IMG/VR virus record: IMGVR_UViG_3300021957_004671
Location: 1-64,000 of that record
Strand: one strand, 5' to 3'
Origin: a virus
DNA length: 64,000 nucleotides
The notes beneath the pieces were generated by a model. That model saw only the letters and a list, made by a program, of their open reading frames with translations, ran no database searches and was not told the origin of the DNA. The translations under genes were made by a program, and so were the position numbers. This document shows, in pieces, positions 7,382 to 61,448 of this stretch. Numbering within the stretch: position 1 is the stretch's first letter; the number at the start of each line of letters is the position of its first letter.

Positions 7382-7539
7382 TGATTAATAAAGATCCAGG
7401 TAAGCGGCATTTTTATATTAGTATCGTAAAGAGTATTCTAAGGTTCGGAGCCTGTGGTTATCTTTACTTTGGTATGTATGAAGGCGCTGCCTTATTACTA
7501 TTCTCAGCAGAAGTGTTAGGAGTAGCAGAGGAGATCTAA
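7381..7539 (+). CDS. Small membrane protein of unknown function
   Basis: A 52-residue ORF fitting exactly between queF (TAATG overlap) and the next gene (TAATG overlap). A Gly/Leu/Phe-rich hydrophobic stretch in the second half suggests one membrane segment after a basic N-terminus (GKRHFYISIVKSILR). Short membrane ORFs in such positions are common in marine T4-like phages. Function unknown. Confidence 0.6.
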   Translation: MINKDPGKRHFYISIVKSILRFGACGYLYFGMYEGAALLLFSAEVLGVAEEI

Positions 7540-17891: not shown

Positions 17892-20387
17892 ATGCGATTC
17901 TATACTAACGTTCAATTAATTGGTGATAAGATACTCCATCGTGGGTATGAAGATGGCAAGCGCTTCAGTTATATGGAGCCTTGCCGTCCTTATCTTTTTG
18001 TTTCACCCTATAACGGTCCTACCGACTACTTCACGTTGGACGGTAAACCTGTCAAACGAATTGACTTCGAAACCCCTTACGAAGCTCAAAACTTTATCAA
18101 GCGTAGAAAAGATGTAGGTAACTCTCAAGTACATGGGCTACCCATGTTTGCTTATACCTATATTAACGATAACTATAAAGATGTCGAATATGATGCTGAT
18201 GCGATTCGAGTTATTAATATCGATATCGAGGTCGCTGCTGATGAAGGCTTCCCTGATATCAATCTAGCTGATAAAGAGATTACTGCTATTGCTTTCAAAT
18301 TTAGAGATAAGTTTGTTGTCATTGGTGGTCAACCTTATACTCCTAAACAAGATAACGTCCATTATATTCAAGCTACTAGCGAAGCTAATCTACTGATGAG
18401 GTTTGTTGACGCTTATCGAGCTGTTGATCCTGATGTTATTACTGGATGGAATGTTGAGCAGTTCGATATACCGTATATCATTAACCGTATTAAGAGAGTG
18501 CTTGGTGATGAGTTTGCTAAGAAGCTATCTCCTTTCGGTAAGTTACGTGAGCGTCGTGTTGTTATTGCTGGTCGTGAGAATCTATTCTATGAACCTCTAG
18601 GTGTTTCTACTCTCTGCTACTTGCAAATGTATCGTAAGTTTACATTCGTAATGCGTGATAGTTATAGTCTTAATAATATTGCTCATATTGAACTCGATGA
18701 AAAGAAGCTTGACTACTCAGAGCATGATAGTCTATTTGACTTATATAAGCATGACTGGGAAAAGTTTATTGACTACAATATTCAAGACGTTGAGCTAGTT
18801 GCTCGTCTAGATGATAAGCTTAAACTTATTGAGCAGGTATATGCGATTGCGTATGATGCTAAAGTTAATTATCAAGATACGTTTACTTCAGTACGAATGT
18901 GGGACTTGATTATTCATAACCATCTTATGAATAAGAATATTGTTGTACCTCAATTTAATATGGTCGAGAAAGAACGTCAAGCTGAAGGTGCTCACGTTAA
19001 AGATCCTATGGTGGGTATGAGTAAGTGGGTAGTATCTTTTGACCTTAACTCTCTATACCCTCATTTAATTATGCAGTATAATATCTCACCTGAGACTTGG
19101 AAGGGTAAGATAGGAGCAGCGCCTTCTATAACTGATATTATTGAGAAGAGAGCTTGGGATGCTTATAGTGAGGAGTTAGAGGCTCGTAATGTAGCTGTGG
19201 CTGCAACTGGTGACTTATACGATAAAGACTATAAAGGTTTCCTCCCTACTCTTATGCAGAGTATGTATGATGATCGAGTTGTATGGAAGAATCGAATGCT
19301 TGATTATAAGCGTGAGTATGAGAAGAAGCCTTCAGAGGAACTTACTAAGAAGATTGCTCAATGTCATAATATGCAATTGGCTAAAAAGATTCAACTTAAC
19401 TCAGCTTATGGTGCGTTAGGTAACCAATACTTTAGATGGTTTGATCTTAAGTATGCTGAGTCGATTACTAAAGGTGGTCAGTTATCTATTCGTTGGATTG
19501 AGAAAGCTCTTAATGAATGGCTTAATAAGACTCTCGGTACTGAGAATGAAGACTTCGTTGTTGCTATTGATACTGACTCTGTTTATATTACCTTAGAGAA
19601 ACTAGTTAATAAAGTATACCCTGATGGTGCAGATGATAATAAGATTGTTGACTTCCTAGATAAGTCTTGTGATGAGATTATTGAACCTATTATTGATAAA
19701 TCTTATCAGCAACTTGCTACGTATGTAAATGCTACTGAGAATAAGATGTTCATGAAGCGAGAGAACATCGGTAATAAAGCTATATGGACTGCTAAGAAGC
19801 GTTATATTATGAACGTGTTTGACTCCGAGGGAGTTAGATATGAAGAACCTAAGCTTAAGATTATGGGCATTGAGGCTGTACGATCTAGTACGCCTTCTTC
19901 TTGTCGAGAGAATATTAAGAAGGCTTTGCTTGTGATAATGAATCAGAGTGAAGAAGAGCTTATTCAATTCATTGAAAGCTTCCGTGAAGAGTTTAGATCT
20001 TTACCTTTCGAAGATATTGCTTCACCGCGCGGTTGTAGAGGTTTAAATAAGTATATTGATGCTGCGATGATTTATAAGAAGGGTACTCCGTTACATGTAC
20101 GTGGTGCTTTGATGTATAATCATTTACTGGTTGAGCATAAGATTGAGCGCTTTCAACCTGTGCAAGAAGGTGATAAGGTTAAGTATATTTACTTAAAGTT
20201 ACCTAACCCTTCTCGCGAAAACGTTATTGCTGTATCCGGTCAGTTACCAAGGCAGTTAGGATTAGATAAGTATATTGACTATGATAAGCAATTTGATAAA
20301 GCGTTCCTTGATCCTATGCGTACTATTATTGAAGCGATTGGATGGAATGTTGAAAAGCAAATGACCTTGGAGTCATTCTTCGGATAA
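17892..20387 (+). CDS. 43: DNA polymerase gp43 (family B)
   Basis: 831 residues, slightly shorter than T4 gp43. The 3'-5' exonuclease motifs are INIDIEV (Asp111, Glu113), ITGWNVEQFDIPYI and YNIQDVELV. Polymerase motif A is SFDLNSLYP (about 383), motif B QLNSAYGALGN (about 500) and motif C DTDS (about 560), so the enzyme looks intact. No Shine-Dalgarno site precedes the ATG, and the promoter places the transcript start at the start codon. Replicates the phage genome with the gp45 clamp. Confidence 0.97.
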   Translation: MRFYTNVQLIGDKILHRGYEDGKRFSYMEPCRPYLFVSPYNGPTDYFTLDGKPVKRIDFETPYEAQNFIKRRKDVGNSQVHGLPMFAYTYINDNYKDVEYDADAIRVINIDIEVAADEGFPDINLADKEITAIAFKFRDKFVVIGGQPYTPKQDNVHYIQATSEANLLMRFVDAYRAVDPDVITGWNVEQFDIPYIINRIKRVLGDEFAKKLSPFGKLRERRVVIAGRENLFYEPLGVSTLCYLQMYRKFTFVMRDSYSLNNIAHIELDEKKLDYSEHDSLFDLYKHDWEKFIDYNIQDVELVARLDDKLKLIEQVYAIAYDAKVNYQDTFTSVRMWDLIIHNHLMNKNIVVPQFNMVEKERQAEGAHVKDPMVGMSKWVVSFDLNSLYPHLIMQYNISPETWKGKIGAAPSITDIIEKRAWDAYSEELEARNVAVAATGDLYDKDYKGFLPTLMQSMYDDRVVWKNRMLDYKREYEKKPSEELTKKIAQCHNMQLAKKIQLNSAYGALGNQYFRWFDLKYAESITKGGQLSIRWIEKALNEWLNKTLGTENEDFVVAIDTDSVYITLEKLVNKVYPDGADDNKIVDFLDKSCDEIIEPIIDKSYQQLATYVNATENKMFMKRENIGNKAIWTAKKRYIMNVFDSEGVRYEEPKLKIMGIEAVRSSTPSSCRENIKKALLVIMNQSEEELIQFIESFREEFRSLPFEDIASPRGCRGLNKYIDAAMIYKKGTPLHVRGALMYNHLLVEHKIERFQPVQEGDKVKYIYLKLPNPSRENVIAVSGQLPRQLGLDKYIDYDKQFDKAFLDPMRTIIEAIGWNVEKQMTLESFFG

Positions 20388-44197: not shown

Positions 44198-46486
44198 ATG
44201 GATTATACAATAACAGTAGGTAAGCGGGACGGCTCGAAAGAAAGTCTCGATCTAGAAAAATTTCATAAAGTAGTACAGTTTGCTTGTGAAGGTATTGCAG
44301 GGGTCTCTGAGTCAGAGATCGAGCTTAAATCGCATATTAATTTCTACGATAAGATCACATCTAAAGAGATTCAAGAAACTCTGATTAAAGCTGCTGCTGA
44401 TCTTATCTCTGAAGAAACACCTAACTATCAGATTGTTGCTGGTAGGTTGATCTCTTATGATCTTCGTAAAGAGGTGTTCGGTGATTACGAACCTAAAGAG
44501 CTTATTGAGCATGTTAAGGATGTAGTTGCTGCTGGCTTCTATGATGAGAAGTTACTTGATTGGTATGATAGTCTAGAGTATGCGCAGATGAATAGCTGGA
44601 TTAATCACTCACGTGATGATAATCTAACTTATGCTGCAATGGAGCAGATGCGCGGTAAGTATCTAGTTAAGAATAGAGCAACAGGTAAATTTTATGAGAC
44701 GCCTCAGATTGCTATGATGCTAATTAGTGCGACTCTATTCCATAAGTACGGTGAAGATAGAATGACTTATGTGAAAGACTTCTATGATGCATTGTCTCTA
44801 TTTGATGTATCTTTACCTACACCTGTTATGGCCGGAGTAAGAACTTCGGTACGTCAGTTTAGTTCTTGTGTGCTTATTGAGACTGACGATTCATTAGATT
44901 CTATTTCAGCTACAGCGAGTTCAATTGTTAAATATGTTTCAAAAAGAGCAGGTATTGGTATTGGTGCAGGAAGAATCAGAGCGCTTGGAAGCTCTATCAA
45001 CGGTGGTCATGCTACTCATACTGGTGCTATCCCGTTCTATAAGCATTTCCAGTCTGCTGTCAGATCTTGTAGTCAAGGCGGTGTCCGTGGTGGCGCTGCT
45101 ACTTTGTATTATCCTATTTGGCATTATGAAGTTGAGGATCTTCTTGTACTTAAAAATAATAAAGGCACTTCAGATAATCGAATCAGACACCTAGATTATG
45201 GTGTACAATTTAATAAAGTATTTTATGAGAGGTTACTAAGCAATGATGATATTACACTCTTCTCACCCTCAGATGTACCAGAGTTATGGGACCCGTTCTT
45301 TAGTGACTCCGATAAGTTCCGCGAGCTCTATGAAGCAGCAGAACGAAAGACATCAATCAGAAAGAAGAAAATATCAGCAATCGATCTATTCTCAGCGTTC
45401 ATGCAAGAGAGAAAAGATACTGGACGTATATATCTGATGAATGTAGACCATGCTAATGATCATGGTGCATTTATTAAAGAAGTAGCTCCTATTAGACAAT
45501 CTAATCTATGCTGTGAAATTAACTTACCTACTAAACCGTTATCTAATATTGACGATGAAGAAGGTGAGATTAGTCTTTGTACTCTAGCAGCTATTAACTG
45601 GGGTAATATTAAGAAGCCAGAAGACTTTGCTAAACCAGCTAACTTGCTAGTAAGAGCCTTAGATGAGCTTCTAGATTATCAAGAGTACCCTGTAATTGCA
45701 GCTGAGCTTTCTACTAAGAATAGACGACCATTAGGTATTGGTATTATTAACTTTGCATATTGGATGGCAAAAAATAATATGACTTATTCTGAACCTAATC
45801 TAGAATTGATTGACGAGTATGCTGAAGCATGGTCTTATCACTTAATTAATACTTCTATTGAGCTAGCTGAGACTAAAGGTCCATGCCCTAAAGCACCTGA
45901 GACTCATTACTTCCATGGACGTATGCCTATTGATACATACAAGAAAGAAGTAGATGAACTAGTACCTAATAACCCTAAGATGAATTGGGACAGTCTAAGA
46001 TATAGAGCCAGAGCAAGCGGTATTCGTAACTCTACTCTAATGGCATTAATGCCTTCTGAGACTTCATCGCAGATTAGTAATGCTACTAATGGTATTGAGC
46101 CTCCTAGAGCATTAGTATCAGTTAAGCAATCTAAAGACGGTGTACTAAAGCAGGTTGTACCTCAGTTCCATCACTTAAAGAATAAATATGAACTGCTATG
46201 GGATCAGCAATCACCTGAAGGTTATCTTAAAATTGTTGCAGTACTTCAGAAGTATATTGATCAAGGTATCTCAGTCAATACTTCATATAATCCAGTATTT
46301 TATGAAGACGAGAAGATCCCTATGTCTATTATGCTGCAGCACTTGCTTATGTTCTATAAGTATGGCGGTAAGCAACTCTACTATTTCAATACATATGATG
46401 GTGCTTCAGATGAGCAAGGTGAAGATACTCCTCTAGAAGAGAGTGAAATGGTGGATGGTGAAGAATGTGACGCCTGTACAATATAG
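44198..46486 (+). CDS. nrdA: Ribonucleotide reductase class I, alpha subunit NrdA
   Basis: 762 residues with an N-terminal ATP-cone (KRDGSKESLDLEKFHKVV), FSSCVLIETDDSLDSI, GGVRGGAATLYYPIWH and NLCCEINLP with active-site Cys. The C-terminal CDACTI supplies the redox-active Cys pair. It reduces ribonucleoside diphosphates to deoxy forms with NrdB. The glutaredoxin at 60.2 kb could recharge it. Confidence 0.97.
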   Translation: MDYTITVGKRDGSKESLDLEKFHKVVQFACEGIAGVSESEIELKSHINFYDKITSKEIQETLIKAAADLISEETPNYQIVAGRLISYDLRKEVFGDYEPKELIEHVKDVVAAGFYDEKLLDWYDSLEYAQMNSWINHSRDDNLTYAAMEQMRGKYLVKNRATGKFYETPQIAMMLISATLFHKYGEDRMTYVKDFYDALSLFDVSLPTPVMAGVRTSVRQFSSCVLIETDDSLDSISATASSIVKYVSKRAGIGIGAGRIRALGSSINGGHATHTGAIPFYKHFQSAVRSCSQGGVRGGAATLYYPIWHYEVEDLLVLKNNKGTSDNRIRHLDYGVQFNKVFYERLLSNDDITLFSPSDVPELWDPFFSDSDKFRELYEAAERKTSIRKKKISAIDLFSAFMQERKDTGRIYLMNVDHANDHGAFIKEVAPIRQSNLCCEINLPTKPLSNIDDEEGEISLCTLAAINWGNIKKPEDFAKPANLLVRALDELLDYQEYPVIAAELSTKNRRPLGIGIINFAYWMAKNNMTYSEPNLELIDEYAEAWSYHLINTSIELAETKGPCPKAPETHYFHGRMPIDTYKKEVDELVPNNPKMNWDSLRYRARASGIRNSTLMALMPSETSSQISNATNGIEPPRALVSVKQSKDGVLKQVVPQFHHLKNKYELLWDQQSPEGYLKIVAVLQKYIDQGISVNTSYNPVFYEDEKIPMSIMLQHLLMFYKYGGKQLYYFNTYDGASDEQGEDTPLEESEMVDGEECDACTI

Positions 46487-50302: not shown

Positions 50303-50881
50303 ATGATTATAGGACTCTCCCAACGAGTCCTAACCTATAGGGAGAGGGAGTATGACTCTTTAAGCAGGGACTTTTATAAGTTCTTTAAGGGTCATACTCT
50401 TCTACCCATACCTAACGGGTATAGTATAGATTATGATGCGTTGGTAAATCAGATTGATATTTTTGTAATTACTGGTGGAGAAGCTCATCCAGATAGAACT
50501 CAAACCGAGTTACTTATAGCACAAAAAATGACGTCGATTGGCAAACCAGTAGTTGGTATTTGTTATGGTGCATTCCTATTAACGGAAGTGTTAGAAGGAT
50601 CTGTACAGACAAAGTACGATATGCCTCATGGTGTTGATCATAAGATATTCTATCATACTGATCTAGAAGAATATGAAGTAAACTCTTTTCACAATCAAAT
50701 TATCACCCATGAGCCTCCAGGCTCAGAAGTACTATGTTCAGATGAATATGGTTATGTTGAAGCATGGGTTAAAGGGAATGTAGCAGCTGTAGTATGGCAC
50801 CCAGAAAGAATGAATGAACCCTGGTTACCATCTGAGATTAATAATCTTTTGAAAAAACAGTTGCAATATGTGTTACATTAG
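50303..50881 (+). CDS. Class I glutamine amidotransferase (peptidase C26-like)
   Basis: 192 residues: VITGGEAHPDR, VGICYGAFLL with nucleophile Cys87, and VVWHPERM with His166 and Glu168. The triad of a class I amidotransferase or gamma-glutamyl hydrolase is complete. The acceptor enzyme is unknown; the neighbours (ferritin-like, cupin) suggest a small-molecule pathway. Confidence 0.8.
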   Translation: MIIGLSQRVLTYREREYDSLSRDFYKFFKGHTLLPIPNGYSIDYDALVNQIDIFVITGGEAHPDRTQTELLIAQKMTSIGKPVVGICYGAFLLTEVLEGSVQTKYDMPHGVDHKIFYHTDLEEYEVNSFHNQIITHEPPGSEVLCSDEYGYVEAWVKGNVAAVVWHPERMNEPWLPSEINNLLKKQLQYVLH

Positions 50882-50889
50882 GATATAAT
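50861..50889 (+). promoter_or_regulatory. Sigma70-like promoter of the cupin gene (leaderless)
   Basis: TTGCAA at 50861-50866 and TATAAT at 50884-50889 are 17 nt apart. The predicted transcript start is about 50896, the A of the cupin ATG. Confidence 0.68.
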
Positions 50890-50895
50890 TATAGC

Positions 50896-51549
50896 ATGAT
50901 TAAATTAAAAGAACCATTAACAGTAAGAGATAGATGGAACTTCAAAGTTACCTATCTCGAAGAGCATGAATACCAGACCTTTACTCCAGAAGGAATGGCT
51001 TACATTATGTTGAATAAATCAATGTACTTCAATGACGATGGCTATATGGCCCATAAGACAGGATGTGTACAGACATCTTCAAGGTTCGGTATTACTACCG
51101 ATGAAGGCACCGCAGTTGTTATCGAGTATCCAGGATTACATCTTCTAGAGGATCGTATCTATATACAGAACGAACTAGATATGGGTAATCTTGCTTACAT
51201 GGATGGCGGCACGAACACCACTGCTATTAACCCAGGCAGGTTAGGTGATCCGGTTGTAAACTATGTACACTTCCCTGCAGGTATGCACCAAACTCTACAT
51301 ACACATCCATCACATAGAATAGGATTATGTGTATCGGGTAACGGTAGAGTGCAGCTAGAAGGTCATGAGTACTTTGATGTGAAAAATGGCGAGGCATTCT
51401 TTATGCGACGCAACGAACTTCATAACTTTATGTGCCAAGATGAAGATGTAGTATTATTTGTGTGGGCTCCAGACTCTGGAACAGGTCCTACCGATGAAGT
51501 AAATCCTTTGAAAGTAAGAACTTATGTCGGGCAACAATTCACAAAATAA
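50896..51549 (+). CDS. Cupin-domain protein
   Basis: 217 residues. The cupin fold is in the second half: FPAGMHQTLHTHPSHRIGLCVSGNGRVQLEG (His-rich motif 1) and FFMRRNELHNFMCQ (motif 2 His). The N-terminal half is of unknown fold. It may bind a metal and act as a dioxygenase, isomerase or binding protein. Predicted to be made from a leaderless message. It overlaps the next gene by 26 nt. Confidence 0.75.
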   Translation: MIKLKEPLTVRDRWNFKVTYLEEHEYQTFTPEGMAYIMLNKSMYFNDDGYMAHKTGCVQTSSRFGITTDEGTAVVIEYPGLHLLEDRIYIQNELDMGNLAYMDGGTNTTAINPGRLGDPVVNYVHFPAGMHQTLHTHPSHRIGLCVSGNGRVQLEGHEYFDVKNGEAFFMRRNELHNFMCQDEDVVLFVWAPDSGTGPTDEVNPLKVRTYVGQQFTK

Positions 51550-52183
51550 ACGTCTTCTCATTCTAGCAGGCGCTCAAGGTTCAGGTAACCATTTGTTTGC
51601 TAGATTATTCTCTCTACATGACAGCGTTAAAGGCTGGGATGAACTGCTTGAAAAGTATTGGGTACCTTCTGATGAGGAACCCTTCGCGAAAGCGTTTGTA
51701 GACCCTTCAGAGCTTAACGCTGAGCTATTGGAAGAGTATACGGTAATGAATGTGTCGTACCCGTTCATATACAATGGAGAGAAGGTTTATCCTAAGATTA
51801 AAGAAGTGGCTAACCTAGCTACTGACTTAGGAGTTAAGGTACAGATTGGTATTATAGTAAGAGATCATAATATCAATCAATTGCAGCAGCAACGTGTAAG
51901 AGGCTATGTTGCATTTGAAGAGGCCAGAACTTATTTCAGACATTTAGATAATGAAGAGTATGATATACATTTCATTAGTCACGAATCCTTATTTGCATAT
52001 CCTAATATGTATATGAGATATCTAGGACAGCAGTTAGATTTTCCTGTTGACTGGAAAAATGCTAGCAGTCATATTGACGTAGCACCTAATAGTAAGTATG
52101 TAAAGTACGTTGAGGAGCATTGGCTTGATGAACTAGTTCACGCAGGCCTTCGCACTAAGAGCGAGAGGGGCATAGATAATTAA
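51524..52183 (+). CDS. Sulfotransferase-like P-loop protein
   Basis: 219 residues with LAGAQGSGNHLFARLFS (about 14-30), a 5'-phosphosulfate-binding-type loop, and HESLFAYPNMYMRYLGQQL, which resembles the 3'-phosphate side of sulfotransferases. Acceptor unknown. Its last codons form one arm of a 14-bp inverted repeat with the end of the convergent cyclase gene. Confidence 0.62.
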   Translation: MSGNNSQNKRLLILAGAQGSGNHLFARLFSLHDSVKGWDELLEKYWVPSDEEPFAKAFVDPSELNAELLEEYTVMNVSYPFIYNGEKVYPKIKEVANLATDLGVKVQIGIIVRDHNINQLQQQRVRGYVAFEEARTYFRHLDNEEYDIHFISHESLFAYPNMYMRYLGQQLDFPVDWKNASSHIDVAPNSKYVKYVEEHWLDELVHAGLRTKSERGIDN

Positions 52184-52221
52184 AGGGAGGTGAGTCAATC
52201 ACTGGAACCCTCTCGCTCTTA
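52156..52221. terminator. 14-bp inverted repeat between convergent genes, probable bidirectional terminator
   Basis: TAAGAGCGAGAGGG (52156-52169) and CCCTCTCGCTCTTA (52208-52221) pair perfectly across 38 nt; a smaller GTGA/TCAC pairing lies in the loop. The left arm codes for the C-terminus of the sulfotransferase-like protein and the right arm contains the cyclase stop codon. ATCCTTTTT follows to the right. Confidence 0.65.
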
Positions 52222-54042
52222 ATCCTTTTTATAAGTAAAGATTTCAATTAACTCTTCTTTACCTTTAACCTTGATATCACCAATCTTAACTGATTCAATA
52301 TCAACTAGCTTATCTTTAGTAAAGCCTGAGTATATTGTAGGCTGATCTATATAATCACCTCTAGCAGCAGTCGCCTCTAATCGCGCAGCTAGATTAACCG
52401 CATCGCCGATAACACTATAATCAAAGCGGCTAACGGACCCCATATTACCAACAATACAGTCACCAGTATTAACTCCAGTCCCGACACGGATTGTTGGAAG
52501 ACCCATTTCTCTATAAACTTCTTGTAACTCTTTAGTAGCATCTTCTATCTCCATAGCTGATTTTACTGCCATATCAGCATGATTATCGCACGGTAACGGA
52601 GCATTCCAAAAGGCCATAATACAATCGCCCATATACTTGTCAATAGTACCGCCGTTGTTAAGAATAATAGTAGTCATTTTATCTAAGTAGTTATTAATAA
52701 GATTAACTAATCCTTCCGGATCATTATTGTTTTTATAGTGTTCTGATATTGGAGTAAATCCACATATATCCATAAACAGGAATGTCATCTCTTTTCTCTC
52801 ACCGCCAAGTTTAAGGAGTGATGGATCTTTAGCAAGAGCATCAACCATATCTGGAGATAAGTAAGTACCGAACTGTCCTTTTATCATCTGCTTCTGCTTA
52901 AAGTTAGTATAGAATTGTACAAAAGAACCATGAGCAAATACAAGCATGAGAGTTAAAAGAGGGAACGTTGGATCAAATAAGAAATAATTATAACTGAATA
53001 GATCAGATGCTCCATACACAACACCCATTGAGAATACTATGAATACACCACCAGCAACTAATATAGGTGCTAACCTCAGAAATAATATAACTAGTATGGA
53101 AAGAAGTACTGTTGTAATGATTTCGTATATCATGAACTCAGGCATTCTTTTAATGCTGACTCCATCGATCATAGTTTTAAGCAAGTTAGCCTGAACATCA
53201 TGAGGGTACATTGAACCTAATGGTGTAGATACTATAGTACTTCCGTTAAATGTAGCTCCTAGTATAGCAATAGATCCGGCTGGAATTTTATCTATATCAG
53301 TAAATGAGTATCTCTTAAATTTGTTCCAATATGCTACAGTTACATTACCTTGATTGTCTGTAACGATATTATCAAACTTTGGAATACGTACAAATAGAAT
53401 ACCAAGAGGGTCAGTCTTAATCTGAAATGTTGTATCACCTGCTGTAACTCTAAGTATATCTAGAGCAAAGGATGGATACATTTTATCTTCGTACAAATTA
53501 ACTAGAGGTATACGTCTAATAATACCATCCTGATCTCTAGTACTATCTACAAGTCCGAATCCATATGCTGATTCATGCAGTTCAGGTCTAGCGAATAATA
53601 ATCCGTCTTTCTCTCGTACAAAGTTAGAGATTGGATCTTCTCCGAATTGAGCAAGTCCAGGTACTCTAGGTCTATAGTCTGTATTGGTTCGGTCACTAGA
53701 ACTGATTGCAAGAATCGATGTCATTCCAAACAATGTATCTGATAAGGCTTTATCTCCACCAGTTCTATCTTCCTCACTCATTATAATATTAATACCGAGG
53801 ATAGAATCTTTTGCTTTGTATAGTTCCTTAGCTAATATATCTCTCGGTAAAGGATATTGACCATACTTAGCAAGTGTATCTTCATCTATATCAATTAGTA
53901 CAATTTGCTCTGATTGTTCTGGTGCTTGACTGCGTTGGAGAAAATCGAAGAAAGAAAGTCGAGCACTTTCCATTAAGAAGGGATCGAGTACTCTTAGTCC
54001 TATAAGAAGAACTAATGTAATTAATACGTGCCAGATTTTCAT
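52219..54042 (-). CDS. CHASE2-domain class III adenylate cyclase
   Basis: 607 residues. An N-terminal membrane segment (about 5-20), an extracytoplasmic CHASE2 sensor region (about 25-300), three membrane segments (about 305-375), then a cyclase domain (about 415-600). Catalytic residues look complete: metal Asp425 (FMDICGFT) and Asp473 (KYMGD), adenine-selecting Lys469, and Asn550/Arg554 in VNLAAR. It would make cAMP in the infected cell in response to an outside signal. It is last in the minus-strand block. I know of no established phage example. Confidence 0.93.
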   Translation of the reverse strand: MKIWHVLITLVLLIGLRVLDPFLMESARLSFFDFLQRSQAPEQSEQIVLIDIDEDTLAKYGQYPLPRDILAKELYKAKDSILGINIIMSEEDRTGGDKALSDTLFGMTSILAISSSDRTNTDYRPRVPGLAQFGEDPISNFVREKDGLLFARPELHESAYGFGLVDSTRDQDGIIRRIPLVNLYEDKMYPSFALDILRVTAGDTTFQIKTDPLGILFVRIPKFDNIVTDNQGNVTVAYWNKFKRYSFTDIDKIPAGSIAILGATFNGSTIVSTPLGSMYPHDVQANLLKTMIDGVSIKRMPEFMIYEIITTVLLSILVILFLRLAPILVAGGVFIVFSMGVVYGASDLFSYNYFLFDPTFPLLTLMLVFAHGSFVQFYTNFKQKQMIKGQFGTYLSPDMVDALAKDPSLLKLGGERKEMTFLFMDICGFTPISEHYKNNNDPEGLVNLINNYLDKMTTIILNNGGTIDKYMGDCIMAFWNAPLPCDNHADMAVKSAMEIEDATKELQEVYREMGLPTIRVGTGVNTGDCIVGNMGSVSRFDYSVIGDAVNLAARLEATAARGDYIDQPTIYSGFTKDKLVDIESVKIGDIKVKGKEELIEIFTYKKD

Positions 54043-54419
54043 TAATTTACCAGACTGTAGTTATGAGCAATAGTAACACTAAGAATACCATTTACAATAT
54101 TAATAGTCATTCTATCCCCATAATAATGAATAATAGTACCAAGCACAGCTTTATGGATTATTAGATCAGAGAGAGATGGTCTCTTAGGCAGCAAAGGGTT
54201 AATTTCTCTGCAGTCAGAACACTTTCTCATTGCTCTGTCTGTTGTATATACATCTAAAGCATTAAGAGTCCAGAACAACAACATCTGATTGTCTGTTGGC
54301 TGATCAAAAGTCTGAACCGGAGCATCACTGATATGATATTCCCAGTCTGGTTTAGGTCCATATACTTCTGCATGAAGGGGAGTTGAAAATAGTATTAAAA
54401 ATAGTAGAAGTTTTTTCAT
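54042..54419 (-). CDS. Small secreted protein of unknown function
   Basis: 125 residues with a Sec signal peptide (MKKLLLFLILFSTPLHA). The mature part contains FWTLNALDVYTTDRAMRKCSDCREINPLLPKRPSLSDLIIHK, a pattern resembling DUF5658-type proteins. One CxxC could form a disulfide. It lies between the FecR-domain gene and the cyclase gene, overlapping both. Function unknown. Confidence 0.65.
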   Translation of the reverse strand: MKKLLLFLILFSTPLHAEVYGPKPDWEYHISDAPVQTFDQPTDNQMLLFWTLNALDVYTTDRAMRKCSDCREINPLLPKRPSLSDLIIHKAVLGTIIHYYGDRMTINIVNGILSVTIAHNYSLVN

Positions 54420-55534
54420 TGCTTTATATTTATAACAGTTGCTGACCCGTTAATTATAACAGGATCTAGCTCTTTACCGCCTTGCATTAAATTTACTTCA
54501 GTCTCTGCATCGGCCTCAAGATCTGCTCTAAAGCTTCCAGTAACCTCTCTTCTTAGAGATAAAAGGTTACCGTCTATAATAGTACTAAATTGGGTATCAG
54601 AATCGAATCCTTCTTCTGTGCCTTGTATAGCAGCTGTACCAGTAAACTCTTTAGTACCTAGATTATCCATATCAAGATCACTATAATCATCTAGTAAATC
54701 TTCTAATAGATCAACATCAAGATAGTTAATATCTAGTTCAGTATACTCTAACAGATCTTCTTCTAATTCGTCCTCTAAAAGTTGCTCATCTAAGAAATCT
54801 ATATTAAGGGGATTAACATTCTTATTAGCATTAACTGAAGAGTAAAATTCATCTACTGTTTCTACTCTCTTAGGAGGTGAAATGATCATTATATTATCTA
54901 ACATATCTAACGTTAGATCTAATATAGCAGGTGTGGAAGGAAATGACTCCAGAACTGATGCAGTAGTTGATTCAAATGGCTTATTAAGAGTAACATCACC
55001 CATCTGAGTTGATACTATAATTTCACCAGATGATAATCCATTAACGTCAGGTAACAATACTACAAGAGTTCTTCCTAACTCATCAACAGTTACTGTAAAG
55101 TCAGTACCTCTAATGGATATAGAGGCGCTTGGTGTTCTCAGGCTTATATTCTCTTGATTAATCCTTCCAATCTCACCAGATACAAATCTAGCTGTTCCTT
55201 GTGCAAAGGTCATAGCCAATGAAGACTTGGAAGGATCGGGGTCAAGAACTACTTTATCTAATATAATACGAGAGTGCTCAGTCATTCTAAGCTTAGACTC
55301 ATCAACAAATAGAATCTCCATTCGACCCTCGCCTGTGCGAAGGTCGTCCTTAGAAACTATATCAGAACCAGATGTAGGCTCTAACTTACTCTCATCTCTT
55401 ACAATCTGACGCCAACCAATAGCTCGGTTAACTTCACCAACGTCAGCTACTGGATTACTAGCAGCCTGTTGCGGAGCCAGAATCAGACTGACTAATACAA
55501 AGAGTTGCAGGAGTTGTTGTTGTGCCTGATCCAC
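54416..55534 (-). CDS. Secreted FecR-domain protein
   Basis: 372 residues. A signal peptide (about 1-25, LLQLFVLVSLILAPQQAAS) is followed by a FecR domain (about 35-185: LRTGEGRMEILFVDESKLRMTEHS, TPSASISIRGTDFTV). A very acidic stretch (about 240-295, rich in Leu/Asp/Glu) and a C-terminal domain follow. The GTG start at 55534 lies 77 nt inside the curlin-like gene. FecR domains occur in surface-sensing and secreted proteins; here it may bind the exported fibre or a partner. Confidence 0.78.
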   Translation of the reverse strand: MDQAQQQLLQLFVLVSLILAPQQAASNPVADVGEVNRAIGWRQIVRDESKLEPTSGSDIVSKDDLRTGEGRMEILFVDESKLRMTEHSRIILDKVVLDPDPSKSSLAMTFAQGTARFVSGEIGRINQENISLRTPSASISIRGTDFTVTVDELGRTLVVLLPDVNGLSSGEIIVSTQMGDVTLNKPFESTTASVLESFPSTPAILDLTLDMLDNIMIISPPKRVETVDEFYSSVNANKNVNPLNIDFLDEQLLEDELEEDLLEYTELDINYLDVDLLEDLLDDYSDLDMDNLGTKEFTGTAAIQGTEEGFDSDTQFSTIIDGNLLSLRREVTGSFRADLEADAETEVNLMQGGKELDPVIINGSATVINIKQ

Positions 55535-56186
55535 TGAATTCCACCGTTACATTATCGCTCTGAAGCGTTGATTGCTGATCTATTGTAATATCTATGTTAC
55601 TACCGACTCCAGTAATGGATGAAGTATGACCATCATACCCATCTGCATCGTAAGCAATGCTTACATTGTCGCCGTCAATATCTAGATATGTATCTACATC
55701 ATTGCTGTCAATATTGTAATCAAGATTAAAGTAGTCACCAAGTAATGTCCAATCAAGTACTAGACCAGTTGCCTGATCGTCAGTAGCAATATCAAGATCA
55801 ATACTAGCACTATTACCGTCTAAATCAATCTTTATATCACTACTGTCACCGCCATATGTATCTGTAGGATCAACGTCAATAGCCAGGCTATTCGTATCAC
55901 CGTCAATATCAATAACAGTAGTAGTAGTACCTATAATGTTACCTATTACTTTGTTAGTACTTCCAACTGTAGATATGCTTACAGCGGAATTATCACCATC
56001 AATTTTCATAGCTGTAGTACCATCTAGACTACCAGCTATGATATTACCACTACCATCTTGAGTTAAGTTGATATCAGAACCACTACCTACTTGATCTATA
56101 TAGATGGTATTATCCTGTGCAGCTGCATTATAAGAAGTCATAGCGAAAAGTAAGCACATCGAATATTTTAAATGTCTTAACTTCAT
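55458..56186 (-). CDS. Secreted Asp-rich curlin-like repeat protein
   Basis: 242 residues from the ATG at 56186, with a signal peptide ending NAAAQ. Mature repeats of the kind IYIDQVGSGSDINLTQDGSGN, then IDIDGDTNSLAID, IKIDLDGNSASIDLD and LDIDGDNVSIAYD recall the QxGxxN repeats of CsgA/CsgB but are Asp-rich. Two Cys lie in the last 15 residues. csgG and csgF homologues lie directly upstream. It is the best candidate for an exported amyloid-type subunit. Confidence 0.72.
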   Translation of the reverse strand: MKLRHLKYSMCLLFAMTSYNAAAQDNTIYIDQVGSGSDINLTQDGSGNIIAGSLDGTTAMKIDGDNSAVSISTVGSTNKVIGNIIGTTTTVIDIDGDTNSLAIDVDPTDTYGGDSSDIKIDLDGNSASIDLDIATDDQATGLVLDWTLLGDYFNLDYNIDSNDVDTYLDIDGDNVSIAYDADGYDGHTSSITGVGSNIDITIDQQSTLQSDNVTVEFSGSGTTTTPATLCISQSDSGSATGC

Positions 56187-56995
56187 TAGTCTTCCCCTTT
56201 GAAGGTCCAAAACCCTGAGGCCGCGCCTCTGTTAATAAGCTCAAGGACTCCTGTCTCGATAGCACGTTGAGTTGCAATCGAAACGCTTTCGTTACGGGCC
56301 AAGCCACTCTCGATTTCGACGAGAGAGGTTCCCTGTTCTATAAACCGGAATACATCACCTGACATATTCGTCGATAATATAGTCTTAGAAGAGATAACCT
56401 CTAAAACAACCTCACCAGTCGCAACACTAATTAACCTAATGTTAATAGTAACTGTGTCACGACTAAACTGTCTCATTGCTCCAATACCAAGATATCTGGC
56501 ACCAGAACCACCCGAGTCAGAAGAGTGATCATAACCAACTATTCCACCTGTAACTAATAGTCCCGCAAATTTAAGCGCTGGGAGTTTAGTAGCATCTTCC
56601 CCATCATAACTCTGACGAGTCTGTCTAATAAGCTGTCGCTCTTTAGTTAGATCGTCAAGAATAGTTCTATCAATCACTGTAAAGAACCTACCACGAGCGG
56701 CTCTTAACAGTGCTCTTGTTAAATACACATCAGGAGCTTGAGTAACGGCTGAACTAAATGACGTTCCCCCTGCTGCATTCTGTTTTTTCTGTCCTGTCAA
56801 GTCTCCAAACCTATAAATGGCGACTGTTGGTGATCTTACTGGTGCAGGTAAATTATATAAATCTTCCGATAAGAGTTCCTGCTGTACTTTGGCAGGCTCA
56901 ATATCTTTTGGAATATCTATTTTACTATAGCTTGCACAGCTAGATACCAAAATCGCCGACAGGAATAGACACGACCGTTGTAACACCGTTCTCAT
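56186..56995 (-). CDS. csgG: Curli secretion channel lipoprotein CsgG
   Basis: 269 residues, close to E. coli CsgG (277). Signal peptide with lipobox ILVSSC (Cys20), then PTVAIYRFGDLTGQ, SSAVTQAPDVYLTRAL, GGIVGYD..SGGSGARYLGIG and VTINIRLISVATGEVV, all conserved CsgG segments. It forms the outer-membrane pore for curli subunits. It overlaps csgF by 56 nt and the curlin-like gene by one base. Confidence 0.94.
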   Translation of the reverse strand: MRTVLQRSCLFLSAILVSSCASYSKIDIPKDIEPAKVQQELLSEDLYNLPAPVRSPTVAIYRFGDLTGQKKQNAAGGTSFSSAVTQAPDVYLTRALLRAARGRFFTVIDRTILDDLTKERQLIRQTRQSYDGEDATKLPALKFAGLLVTGGIVGYDHSSDSGGSGARYLGIGAMRQFSRDTVTINIRLISVATGEVVLEVISSKTILSTNMSGDVFRFIEQGTSLVEIESGLARNESVSIATQRAIETGVLELINRGAASGFWTFKGED

Positions 56996-57479
56996 CTGTT
57001 ATTGTTAACTCCACAAAATCGCCATTATTGACGTATGAAATCCCCACTCCATCCAATTCAAAGGAACCAGTACTGCTTGGATTCTCACCAAACATACTTT
57101 CAACTAATTGTCTTGAAAGAGTAGAGTATACTCTCGATTCAAAGTTACGCAAAAATCTTGCTAATGTTGTACTCTCTGCTTCACGCTCAGCATCCCTAGC
57201 TGCATCTTCTAAATCTTGTGCATTCTGTTTCTTACGAGTGCTTTCTTGATTCTCGATAGTCAGATAGTGAGAAGAAGTATTCTGACCGTTAAATGAGGGC
57301 GACTTAAACTTATGTTCTGATGGTCCTGCTGTCGCCTTGCATGCTAATACTAATGATAAGCCAAAAATTAAACCAACTGTAAATGACTTAACAATCTCAC
57401 CAAATGAGCAATTATATATCCCGATGGACTTACGCATTCTTGCCCAAGCATCCTGCTCAATTTTACTTCTTCTTTGCAT
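56940..57479 (-). CDS. csgF: CsgF-like curli assembly factor
   Basis: About 179 residues from the ATG at 57479 (AGAGG 7 nt upstream). A membrane/signal segment (about 32-52) is followed by SEHKFKSPSFNGQ, matching CsgF FxFxNPxFGG, then RNFESRVYSTLSRQLVESMF and VELTITDENGVTTVVSIPV, matching the CsgF C-terminus. CsgF plugs the CsgG pore and aids nucleation outside the cell. No CsgE or CsgD homologue is seen in the window. Confidence 0.8.
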   Translation of the reverse strand: MQRRSKIEQDAWARMRKSIGIYNCSFGEIVKSFTVGLIFGLSLVLACKATAGPSEHKFKSPSFNGQNTSSHYLTIENQESTRKKQNAQDLEDAARDAEREAESTTLARFLRNFESRVYSTLSRQLVESMFGENPSSTGSFELDGVGISYVNNGDFVELTITDENGVTTVVSIPVGDFGI

Positions 57480-57717
57480 CGTCAGCCTCTTTTCGTCTAT
57501 ATTCAAGCACGACATTTACCTTCTGTTGTAGTCGTATTAGATCTTGGTCTAGCATACGGGTTTGATCAATAACTCTTATAAGAGCTATATGCATTTCTTC
57601 AAGCTTAGGGTCTAGTCTATCGGTTACAAATTTCCATACATAATAAATAAAATATCCTAGACCTACTAATGCTACTGTTTGAAATCCAAACTCTGCAATT
57701 AGTTGTCCCAAATCCAT
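57463..57717 (-). CDS. Small membrane protein with coiled-coil tail, second of a pair
   Basis: 84 residues: one N-terminal membrane segment (about 9-31, FQTVALVGLGYFIYYVWKF) and a charged helical tail. The next gene has the same plan, so they are probably paralogues. They head the curli-like operon. Possible roles include holin-like or helper functions. None is shown. Confidence 0.6.
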   Translation of the reverse strand: MDLGQLIAEFGFQTVALVGLGYFIYYVWKFVTDRLDPKLEEMHIALIRVIDQTRMLDQDLIRLQQKVNVVLEYRRKEADDAKKK

Positions 57718-58010
57718 TAATCCCTTCTTGCATCTATGCTTCCATCCTCAACAAAGTTCTCTGATCGAGCGACTCGATCAATATCAGGCTGTAAATCCAA
57801 TGCACTAGAGACCAATAAATCAATCTTGATAATCTCATTACTCATAGTACGGGTTCTATTCTCAAGTCCTTTGCAGAAGATAGTTAGTGTGTCAATCTGC
57901 CCAAGCACGCCTTCAAGGATCTGTTTAATTACCAGAAAGATAAAAAAACCAGCTCCGATGGCAGCGGCGATAGGTACACCAACTTCTCGTATTAATTCAA
58001 ATATATCCAT
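57717..58010 (-). CDS. Small membrane protein, first gene of the minus-strand operon
   Basis: 97 residues with a membrane segment (about 10-30, GVPIAAAIGAGFFIFLVIK) and a helical, partly acidic tail. It follows a late-type promoter box at 58016-58023 and is coupled to the next gene by an overlap. Function unknown. Confidence 0.6.
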   Translation of the reverse strand: MDIFELIREVGVPIAAAIGAGFFIFLVIKQILEGVLGQIDTLTIFCKGLENRTRTMSNEIIKIDLLVSSALDLQPDIDRVARSENFVEDGSIDARRD

Positions 58011-58015
58011 CTCTA

Positions 58016-58023
58016 TATTTAGC
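58016..58023 (-). promoter_or_regulatory. Putative late promoter of the minus-strand operon
   Basis: Read on the minus strand this is GCTAAATA, ending 5 nt before the first ATG of the operon. It mirrors the plus-strand copy at 58039-58046. Confidence 0.55.
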
Positions 58024-58038
58024 TAATCCTATACTAAA

Positions 58039-58046
58039 GCTAAATA
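58039..58046 (+). promoter_or_regulatory. Putative late promoter, divergent partner
   Basis: GCTAAATA lies 6 nt before the ATG at 58053. Together with the mirrored copy it forms the inverted repeat ATATTTAGC (58015-58023) and GCTAAATAT (58039-58047), 15 nt apart. Confidence 0.55.
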
Positions 58047-58052
58047 TCACGT

Positions 58053-58682
58053 ATGAAACTACTTAAAACAGATTATATGATTAATCCAAAGAAGTATTGG
58101 GTTATGGAGTCAGTTCAACCTCTGACATATGATGATCTAGAGCTATTCGATCAAAATGGATATGATCTATGTAAAGCTGAGCAGAAGTTTGCGGACGGTA
58201 ATGGTTACTCACCACAAGAGCATCGATATAGATATACATGTAAGGCGCCTTGGTACTTAGAGACGCATCGAGAGATGAGTGGACCTCATTTAAATCACGC
58301 TGATCTTTACTTCAGAAGAGGTTTCAGCGGTGATGCAAAGGAACAGCTTAAAAGATTAGCACAAGAAGATGCAGCATTCTATAAATTAATGGCAATGAGA
58401 CCAAAATGGGGTGTTGATATGAGTGTTGACTATGCTGATAGTGATGGTAATGTATTTGAATTATTACATTTTGAATGGGACGGCTTTGATTACTATGAGG
58501 TTCTAAAGAATAAACTATTAGTTGAAGATGTTATTGCTAATATAGATTGGTATAAAGGCGCTAATGAAATGCTTGAACGTAAGGAAGAATGGCATACTTT
58601 AGACTTCTTTGGACAATCAGATTGGAAGCAGGCTTACTGGGGACTACCTAGAGAGCAGTTTAAAGAAGTCATATGGGAATAA
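58053..58682 (+). CDS. Conserved phage protein of unknown function
   Basis: A 209-residue soluble protein with RPKWGVDMSVDYADSDGNVFELLHFEWDGFDYYEV and many aromatic residues. It starts close behind the divergent late-type promoter. I cannot assign a family with confidence. Confidence 0.6.
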   Translation: MKLLKTDYMINPKKYWVMESVQPLTYDDLELFDQNGYDLCKAEQKFADGNGYSPQEHRYRYTCKAPWYLETHREMSGPHLNHADLYFRRGFSGDAKEQLKRLAQEDAAFYKLMAMRPKWGVDMSVDYADSDGNVFELLHFEWDGFDYYEVLKNKLLVEDVIANIDWYKGANEMLERKEEWHTLDFFGQSDWKQAYWGLPREQFKEVIWE

Positions 58683-60422: not shown

Positions 60423-61448
60423 ATGGAATTTAAATTTGTAGAAGACGGTATTGAGAAGAACGAAGTCGACTCAAATGCTATGGGCGGTACTGAGCTAATG
60501 AAGTTTGGTCTGCATGAAAGGCTAGACCCAACCTTACTAGATGACTTTCAGATTATCCCTTCAAGAGTACGAGAGCTAAAAGATGATAAGCTTAAAGTTC
60601 TATGGCTGCATGATCTGCCATGGGACCCTGAGTCACAGCATTTGCATGATGAAGGCTGGAAGAAGTTTGATAAGCTTGTATATGTTTCTGACTGGCAAAA
60701 AGAGCTATATCAGAACATGTTCTCAATTCCACCATCAAAAGGTGTTGTACTAAAGAATGCTATTGTACCACTAGAGGAACATGTTAAACCTGATCCTAGT
60801 GAAGAGATTCGAATTATCTATCATACAACACCTCATAGAGGTCTTGAGCTTCTAGTACCAGTGTTTGAATCCTTATGTACTGTATACGATAACATTCATC
60901 TGGATGTATTCTCTTCATTCAATGCTTATGGATGGGGTGATAGAGATAAGCCTTATGAGCCGTTATTTGAACGTTGTCGTAATAACCCTAAGATTACCTA
61001 TCACGGATTTCAACCTAACGATGTTGTTCGAGAGCATTTGAAGTCTGCTCATATCTTCGCATACCCATCCATATGGCTAGAAACGTCATGCATCGCTATG
61101 ATGGAAGCAATGAGTGCTGGATGTCTATGTGTACATCCTAACTTAGGTGCTCTACCAGAGACTACTGGTCAATGGACTTATATGTATAACTTTCATGAAG
61201 ACGCTCAGCAACATGCTAATGCATTTGGATCTAATCTAACTGAGTGTATTGAGATATTCAAGAACGAAGAGAGACGTGAGCTAATTAAGAATAGACTGAC
61301 TATGCAAAAGCAATATGCTGATTCATTCTATGACTGGAATGTAAGAGCAATTCAGTGGAACCATTTTTTAGGAGCTATGAAAAATGCCCAAAGCCAAGCG
61401 CAAAATGACGGAAGCGCAGAGGAAGGCAGCAGTCGAGAGACTAGCTAA
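60423..61448 (+). CDS. Glycosyltransferase family 4-like protein
   Basis: 341 residues of GT-B type: MGGTELMKFGL, KVLWLHDLPWDPES, KLVYVSDWQKELY, IIYHTTPHRGLELL, and YPSIWLETSCIAMMEAMSAG with the donor-binding Glu block. It would transfer a sugar to an unknown acceptor, perhaps DNA, virion or surface. It overlaps the next gene by 65 nt. Confidence 0.82.
   Translation: MEFKFVEDGIEKNEVDSNAMGGTELMKFGLHERLDPTLLDDFQIIPSRVRELKDDKLKVLWLHDLPWDPESQHLHDEGWKKFDKLVYVSDWQKELYQNMFSIPPSKGVVLKNAIVPLEEHVKPDPSEEIRIIYHTTPHRGLELLVPVFESLCTVYDNIHLDVFSSFNAYGWGDRDKPYEPLFERCRNNPKITYHGFQPNDVVREHLKSAHIFAYPSIWLETSCIAMMEAMSAGCLCVHPNLGALPETTGQWTYMYNFHEDAQQHANAFGSNLTECIEIFKNEERRELIKNRLTMQKQYADSFYDWNVRAIQWNHFLGAMKNAQSQAQNDGSAEEGSSRETS

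Follow-up and report, generated by a model that had tools for sequence, protein, structure and literature searches.

What might a marine phage gain from genes of the bacterial curli pathway? The question is raised by bases 1-64000 (the window) of a 76,198-base IMG/VR virus record, IMGVR_UViG_3300021957_004671. At 52219-58010 the window carries eight minus-strand open reading frames (ORFs), which overlap or touch one another; its other larger gene-like ORFs are all on the plus strand. GC skew is reversed exactly over 52219-58010, while GC content is unchanged there. An original prediction had described this block as a curli-like export operon of eight overlapping minus-strand genes inside an otherwise plus-strand, T4-like genome. 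The ORF list, the strand survey and the GC skew agree on the arrangement. The T4-like character is borne out by the many window ORFs which match Pelagibacter phage HTVC008M, in order, over 84-143 kb of that genome. By homology, gene order and conservation, the block is well supported as a phage-borne curli-type export operon; export of a fibre by it is plausible.

CsgG, CsgF and a FecR-domain protein, all three predicted, are found by Pfam far above the cut-offs. CsgG (56186..56995, minus strand) is an outer-membrane pore lipoprotein which matches PF03783 (E 1.9e-43); a profile search against solved structures returns the solved CsgG (E 3e-64). It has the lipobox VSSC, with the cysteine at position 20. 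Cys20 is invariant in the alignment of relatives, and a lipobox is found in 49/51 distinct CsgG sequences. CsgF (56940..57479, minus strand) has 179 amino acids from the chosen start, the start codon being uncertain, and matches PF10614 (E 2.1e-17). The secreted FecR-domain protein (54416..55534, minus strand; 372 amino acids) matches PF04773 (E 2.1e-10); it has a GTG start, which overlaps the end of the preceding gene, curl1, in another frame. The predicted inventory of CsgG, CsgF, curlin-like and FecR proteins was sound but overlooked a CHASE2 adenylate cyclase at the end of the operon. Compared with E. coli csgBAC/csgDEFG, CsgG and CsgF are homologous; the window differs in having FecR and the cyclase added, in lacking a detectable CsgE, and in lacking a CsgA or CsgB of the multi-repeat (five-repeat) type, none of which was found in the window. 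No CsgC or CsgD was seen in the operon.

The curlin-like protein, curl1 (55458..56186, minus strand; 242 amino acids), is a putative secreted all-beta protein, identified by its curlin positions and its predicted model. Pfam Curlin_rpt picks out a single clear repeat, N-x5-Q-x10-Q-x4-N, at residues 26-48 (56043..56111, minus strand). This scores 17.3 bits in a protein scan, against a cut-off of 20.7, and 21.2 bits in a six-frame search. Strands of the form h-x-h-x-Q-x-G are enriched; there are three in curl1 and 0.13 in shuffles. D25, N26, Q32, G34, Q43, G45 and N48 of the mature N-terminus are invariant among 37 related curl1 sequences. The AlphaFold2 model is all-beta (predicted local distance difference test, pLDDT, 81) and has good matches only to phage models labelled 'curlin associated'. 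With one repeat near the cut-off and enriched kernel strands, the likeness to curlin is the weakest of the claims originally made.

The operon is not peculiar to this record. When IMG/VR was scanned once with CsgG, relatives turned up on 206 contigs; 80 were kept, and 31 loci had enough flank. The small membrane protein tmA, CsgF, CsgG, curl1 and FecR are present at all 31 loci and the cyclase at 29/31, and the gene order is the same throughout. By CsgG identity to the window, the loci form two groups: one at ~70%, whose contigs reach 144 kb, and one at ~53%, probably the podophages of PMC9599517. The CsgG of HTVC008M is 43% identical. It had been allowed that CsgG and CsgF might find no match, or that the block might be misassembled bacterial DNA. 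The matches are strong, and misassembly is rejected because 206 contigs encode CsgG relatives and the order is kept at 31/31 loci, so that the same block stands on independent contigs; GC skew, the HTVC008M gene order and flank composition were also examined. Recent pick-up from bacteria is likewise rejected, as the base composition of the operon is like that of its surroundings (third-position GC 0.27, against 0.31 in the flanks).

The implied novelty of the operon does not survive, since phage curli operons were published in 2020 and a near-complete module in 2022. CsgF and CsgG are annotated in HTVC008M, and a widespread curli cluster was recognised in 2020 (Zaragoza-Solas, PMC7029224). Curli genes were reported in phage Melnitz together with a lysis proposal (Buchholz 2022, PMC9004378), and a description of the module with FecR, adenylate cyclase and a 'histidine kinase', covering both podophages and myophages, followed in 2022 (PMC9599517). 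The benefits suggested in the original prediction, altered adhesion, aggregation, superinfection or virion release, are also largely in print (PMC7029224, PMC9004378, PMC9599517). With the window operon, a known gene set gains another copy, carried by a myophage and both diverged and relocated. It shares with the pelagiphage type VIII secretion system module the order of small gene(s), CsgF, CsgG, curlin-like gene, FecR, optional gene and cyclase; it differs in being inverted and relocated and in having a 125-amino-acid non-curlin protein in the slot of the second curlin. New are the late promoter, the curlin-kernel strand of FecR, the 'histidine kinases' which lack a kinase domain, and a five-gene core in Hyphomonas.

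The FecR strand bears on how an exported curlin might be anchored. The predicted model of the FecR protein shows a signal-peptide-like start, the FecR domain, a low-confidence linker and a beta domain. The protein closes with T-V-I-N-I-K-Q (residues 366-372; 54419..54439, minus strand), which resembles the curlin kernel, defined as N-x-h-x-h-x-Q (PMC10192328). The last strand has the form I/V/L-x-I/V/L-x-Q in 48/48 distinct phage FecR proteins; these 48 sequences are related, and the motif is kept between FecR groups that are ~30% identical. Among 250 background ORFs from two phages the terminal kernel gave three matches, all belonging to curli operons, and 0/247 outside the operon. Six complete FecR proteins from bacteria, encoded near CHASE2 cyclases but not in curli loci, lack this kernel. 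The E. coli CsgB C-terminus, AIRVTQR, is like the phage strand; in E. coli, CsgB links CsgF to CsgA (PMC6957492). It is our inference that the phage FecR protein is a nucleator or tether of curl1.

FecR domains are otherwise familiar from FecR/PupR surface signalling, and the phage domain, as modelled, has a match in the signalling domain of PupR (E 5e-5); no solved relatives of the protein were found by sequence. The two share a periplasmic FecR signalling domain, whereas the phage protein ends in a curlin strand and has no detected cytoplasmic anti-sigma domain, FecR being the sole Pfam domain after the signal-peptide-like start. An iron-regulator role is unlikely because the anti-sigma part is missing and the terminal kernel strand is present. 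In Pseudomonadota, FecR domains are often part of giant open frames, 4,900 to 7,800 amino acids long (L262, L273, L278, L294), which resemble surface proteins more than iron regulators.

The CHASE2 adenylate cyclase (52219..54042, minus strand; 607 amino acids) matches PF05226 (E 2.1e-33) and PF00211 (guanylate/adenylate cyclase, E 1.2e-19). The two metal Asp, the Lys/Asp purine pair and the Asn/Arg pair are all present in the window. The class III residues D425, K469, D473, D547 and R554 are invariant, and N550 is nearly so (Ser in Melnitz). Among 41 distinct cyclases the first two catalytic motifs are found in every one and the third in 40; the sequence that misses it (L073) runs off its contig. 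FecR is also found near 8/20 CHASE2 cyclases elsewhere in Alphaproteobacteria, outside curli. Sinorhizobium CyaD1 (PMC5498481) is similar in combining CHASE2 with a class III cyclase and in having a FecR-domain gene nearby; the window cyclase differs in lying in a phage curli operon, in which no Crp-type regulator was found.

A cellular counterpart is found in Hyphomonas sp. TMED17, where CsgF, CsgG, curlin, FecR and CHASE2 cyclase are arranged as in the phages, on a contig of 705 kb whose flanks are ordinary bacterial DNA. Two overlapping genome samples (398 and 385 genomes) gave no other bacterial full-length match to the FecR profile, and in the samples searched no other bacterial cyclase or full-length FecR comes nearly as close to the phage proteins. 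It differs from the window in having a 504-amino-acid curlin with many repeats, no tmA/tmB, and a FecR protein which ends in VFILE, not xIxQ. Neither FecR nor the cyclase is present at any of 20 ordinary curli loci from the taxonomic order to which TMED17 belongs. A tree of CsgG places the phage sequences with those of Hyphomonas and of a gammaproteobacterial metagenome-assembled genome (MAG) that has curli plus FecR; the group is supported (97/96) and separate from all other bacterial CsgG in the sample. Judged by this grouping, there is a FecR-linked curli subtype, mostly represented by phages. Within it, Hyphomonas and the MAG sit on long branches at a base which the tree does not resolve, so that it points to no direction of transfer.

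Other phage-type curli contigs (L089-L094, L096, L098) have been assigned to MAGs of Maricaulis, Neomarinimicrobiota, Pelagibacter, Rhodobacteraceae and Flavobacteriaceae; several of them carry tmA/tmB, and most are probably misbinned phage DNA. An unverified 1499-base record named 'Salmonella phage S.Kent 1-2-1' (L004, 1-1499), with a CsgG-like gene ~40% identical to pelagiphage CsgG, is probably contamination.

The timing of expression can be approached through the DNA upstream of tmA. An exact T4-type late promoter core, TATAAATA, is present within 100 nt upstream of tmA in 13/17 distinct regions of the myophage group that includes HTVC008M and Melnitz; these regions are mutually related and are not 17 independent cases. 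Composition shuffles of the upstream regions gave a mean of 0.28 and a maximum of 3. In the window, a late-promoter-like site, GCTAAATAT (58015..58023, minus strand), lies 12 nt before the first start codon and is a CTAAATA variant; a divergent late-promoter-like copy (~58039-58047, plus strand) precedes the gene at 58053. CTAAATA is mildly enriched between genes of the record (5/18, uncorrected p ~1e-3). Generic sigma-70 promoters showed no excess over shuffles. As far as the DNA of relatives shows, the operon would be switched on late in infection. At its other end, a hairpin at the junction with a converging plus-strand gene (52160..52217; -21.3 kcal/mol, z -2.6) is likely to be a two-way terminator.

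On this evidence (the domains, the conservation at 31 loci, the catalytic motifs, the lipobox, the late promoter, the FecR kernel and the Hyphomonas core), the best reading, which we hold to have about an even chance of being right, is that the operon is a late-made phage copy of the FecR-linked curli (type VIII) subtype and yields a surface fibre or coat. Late in infection, CsgG and CsgF would pass curl1 to the cell surface, where it would form a short amyloid-type fibre or a coat. The FecR protein would replace CsgB, its terminal strand seeding or tethering curl1. Its FecR domain and the inner-membrane CHASE2 cyclase would act as a sensing pair in the envelope, converting the state of export into cyclic AMP (cAMP). 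The coat may change contact with neighbouring cells or competing phages; sequence cannot decide between aggregation and superinfection exclusion. A more speculative extension, which we consider doubtful, is that FecR combines a CsgB-like nucleator with a signalling domain of the envelope and so ties the fibre to the CHASE2 cyclase, in an export-and-sense circuit by which the condition of the cell surface is relayed as cAMP late in infection.

Several observations weigh against a fibre and a sensing circuit. No fibre has been seen so far from any phage of this kind. There is only one clear curlin repeat in curl1, and a PDB structure search with its model gave no significant match to a solved structure. 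A second curlin is missing at most loci, the slot usually being empty. The window's own promoter is a variant and not an exact core. As for signalling, the cAMP pathway of Sinorhizobium targets the FecR-domain gene SMc02177, the neighbour of CyaD1, and that gene was dispensable for signal perception (PMC5498481), so that caution is needed in taking FecR as a sensor; a cAMP receptor in the host is hypothetical. Two further points, the absence of clumping in Melnitz-infected cultures (PMC9004378) and the failure to find CsgE in the 76 kb record, which is a fragment, also favour another explanation, the timing of lysis and release. It should be noted that the absence of CsgE does not define a phage subtype, because the record is incomplete and CsgE is missing from other pelagiphage modules too (PMC9599517).

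Under the lysis proposal made for Melnitz (PMC9004378), CsgG would be a gated envelope hole, with tmA and tmB as holin-like helpers and the curlin secondary or vestigial. The late promoter suits this. So do the helpers: tmA (57717..58010, minus strand; 97 amino acids) has one membrane segment followed by a helical or coiled tail, and tmB (57463..57717, minus strand; 84 amino acids) is its paralogue. Both belong to phrog_18771, have no Pfam match, and occur only in phage loci and phage-like MAG contigs among those searched, and not in Hyphomonas; a faint YvrJ likeness is seen in 4/16. However, no holin family gave a significant match, CsgG opens the outer membrane and not the inner, and curl1, FecR and CsgF, kept at 31/31 loci with conserved curlin residues, would be superfluous for a bare hole. 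Lysis timing is unlikely to be the main role.

We also regard as unlikely the proposal that curl1 forms a non-fibrous coat which masks the receptors of other phages (superinfection exclusion) and need not be amyloid. It gains from the loss of most canonical repeats in curl1 relative to the 504-amino-acid Hyphomonas curlin. Two C-terminal cysteines, invariant in the 37 related sequences and absent from HTVC008M and Melnitz, hint at a folded, disulfide-closed protein, whereas the mature parts of E. coli CsgA and CsgB have no cysteines. On the other hand, late expression would shield only the end of the cycle, and the Q/G/N ladder positions typical of curlin are kept. Weakest is the uptake idea, in which the pore admits scarce cofactors or siderophores with FecR as iron sensor (PMC9599517; uptake also in PMC7029224): a FecR domain is present, with a modelled likeness to the periplasmic signalling part of PupR, a siderophore regulator, but the promoter is late and not early, no anti-sigma domain was detected on a protein that ends in a curlin strand, and curl1 is left without a role, all of which makes uptake very improbable.

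Some published labels in the phage module look wrong, namely 'iron regulator' and 'histidine kinase'. The latter probably refers to tmA/tmB-like genes, matched here by slot; Pfam finds no kinase or HATPase domain in the 84-116 amino acid membrane proteins of the operon's first slot. The PHROG families matched by CsgG, CsgF, the cyclase, FecR and tmA/tmB (20175, 35372, 35576, 37870 and 18771) are without exception listed under unknown function.

The slot between FecR and the cyclase seems to take differing cargo genes. HTVC008M and Melnitz have there a second, clearer curlin, described as frequent but not universal (PMC9599517). The window has instead a 125-amino-acid secreted or membrane protein (54042..54419, minus strand), which is not a curlin and has no Pfam match; a faint DUF5658 likeness appears in one relative. 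An apparent Staphylococcus-type nuclease, recognised by eye, lies in this slot in L020 (8873-9300) and L016 (after base 7500), and in L016 it stands beside the 125-amino-acid protein.

The position of the operon also varies. In the window it stands, inverted, with the ribonucleotide reductase region on one side and the ribonuclease H (RNaseH) region on the other; in HTVC008M the curli block is at 6.9-13.8 kb, adjoining tail genes; in L009 and L020, two close relatives, it comes after RNaseH and shares its strand. The operon therefore moves. In the window its region is flanked by genes for a class-I glutamine amidotransferase, a cupin protein and a glycosyltransferase (50303-51549 and 60423-61448), suggesting a sugar or surface-modification island. 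The DNA polymerase (17892-20387) is ~51% identical to those of the single-cell marine viruses AG-345-L05/F15 and of cyanophages, and 44% to that of HTVC008M; the ribonucleotide reductase (44198-46486) has its nearest relatives in phages that infect Stenotrophomonas or other gammaproteobacteria. The host may not be SAR11. RNA elements, transfer RNA and transfer-messenger RNA such as those of Melnitz were not found in the window.

Viral curli operons are common in the ocean, as the 206 contigs from one protein query indicate. The placement of the late promoter counts against early metabolic roles. The terminal strand of FecR makes this protein a definite candidate for the place of the missing CsgB, and the Hyphomonas cluster provides a cellular relative that is maybe easier to study. 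If the link between fibre and cyclase is true, the virus would install a complete export-and-sense circuit in its host.

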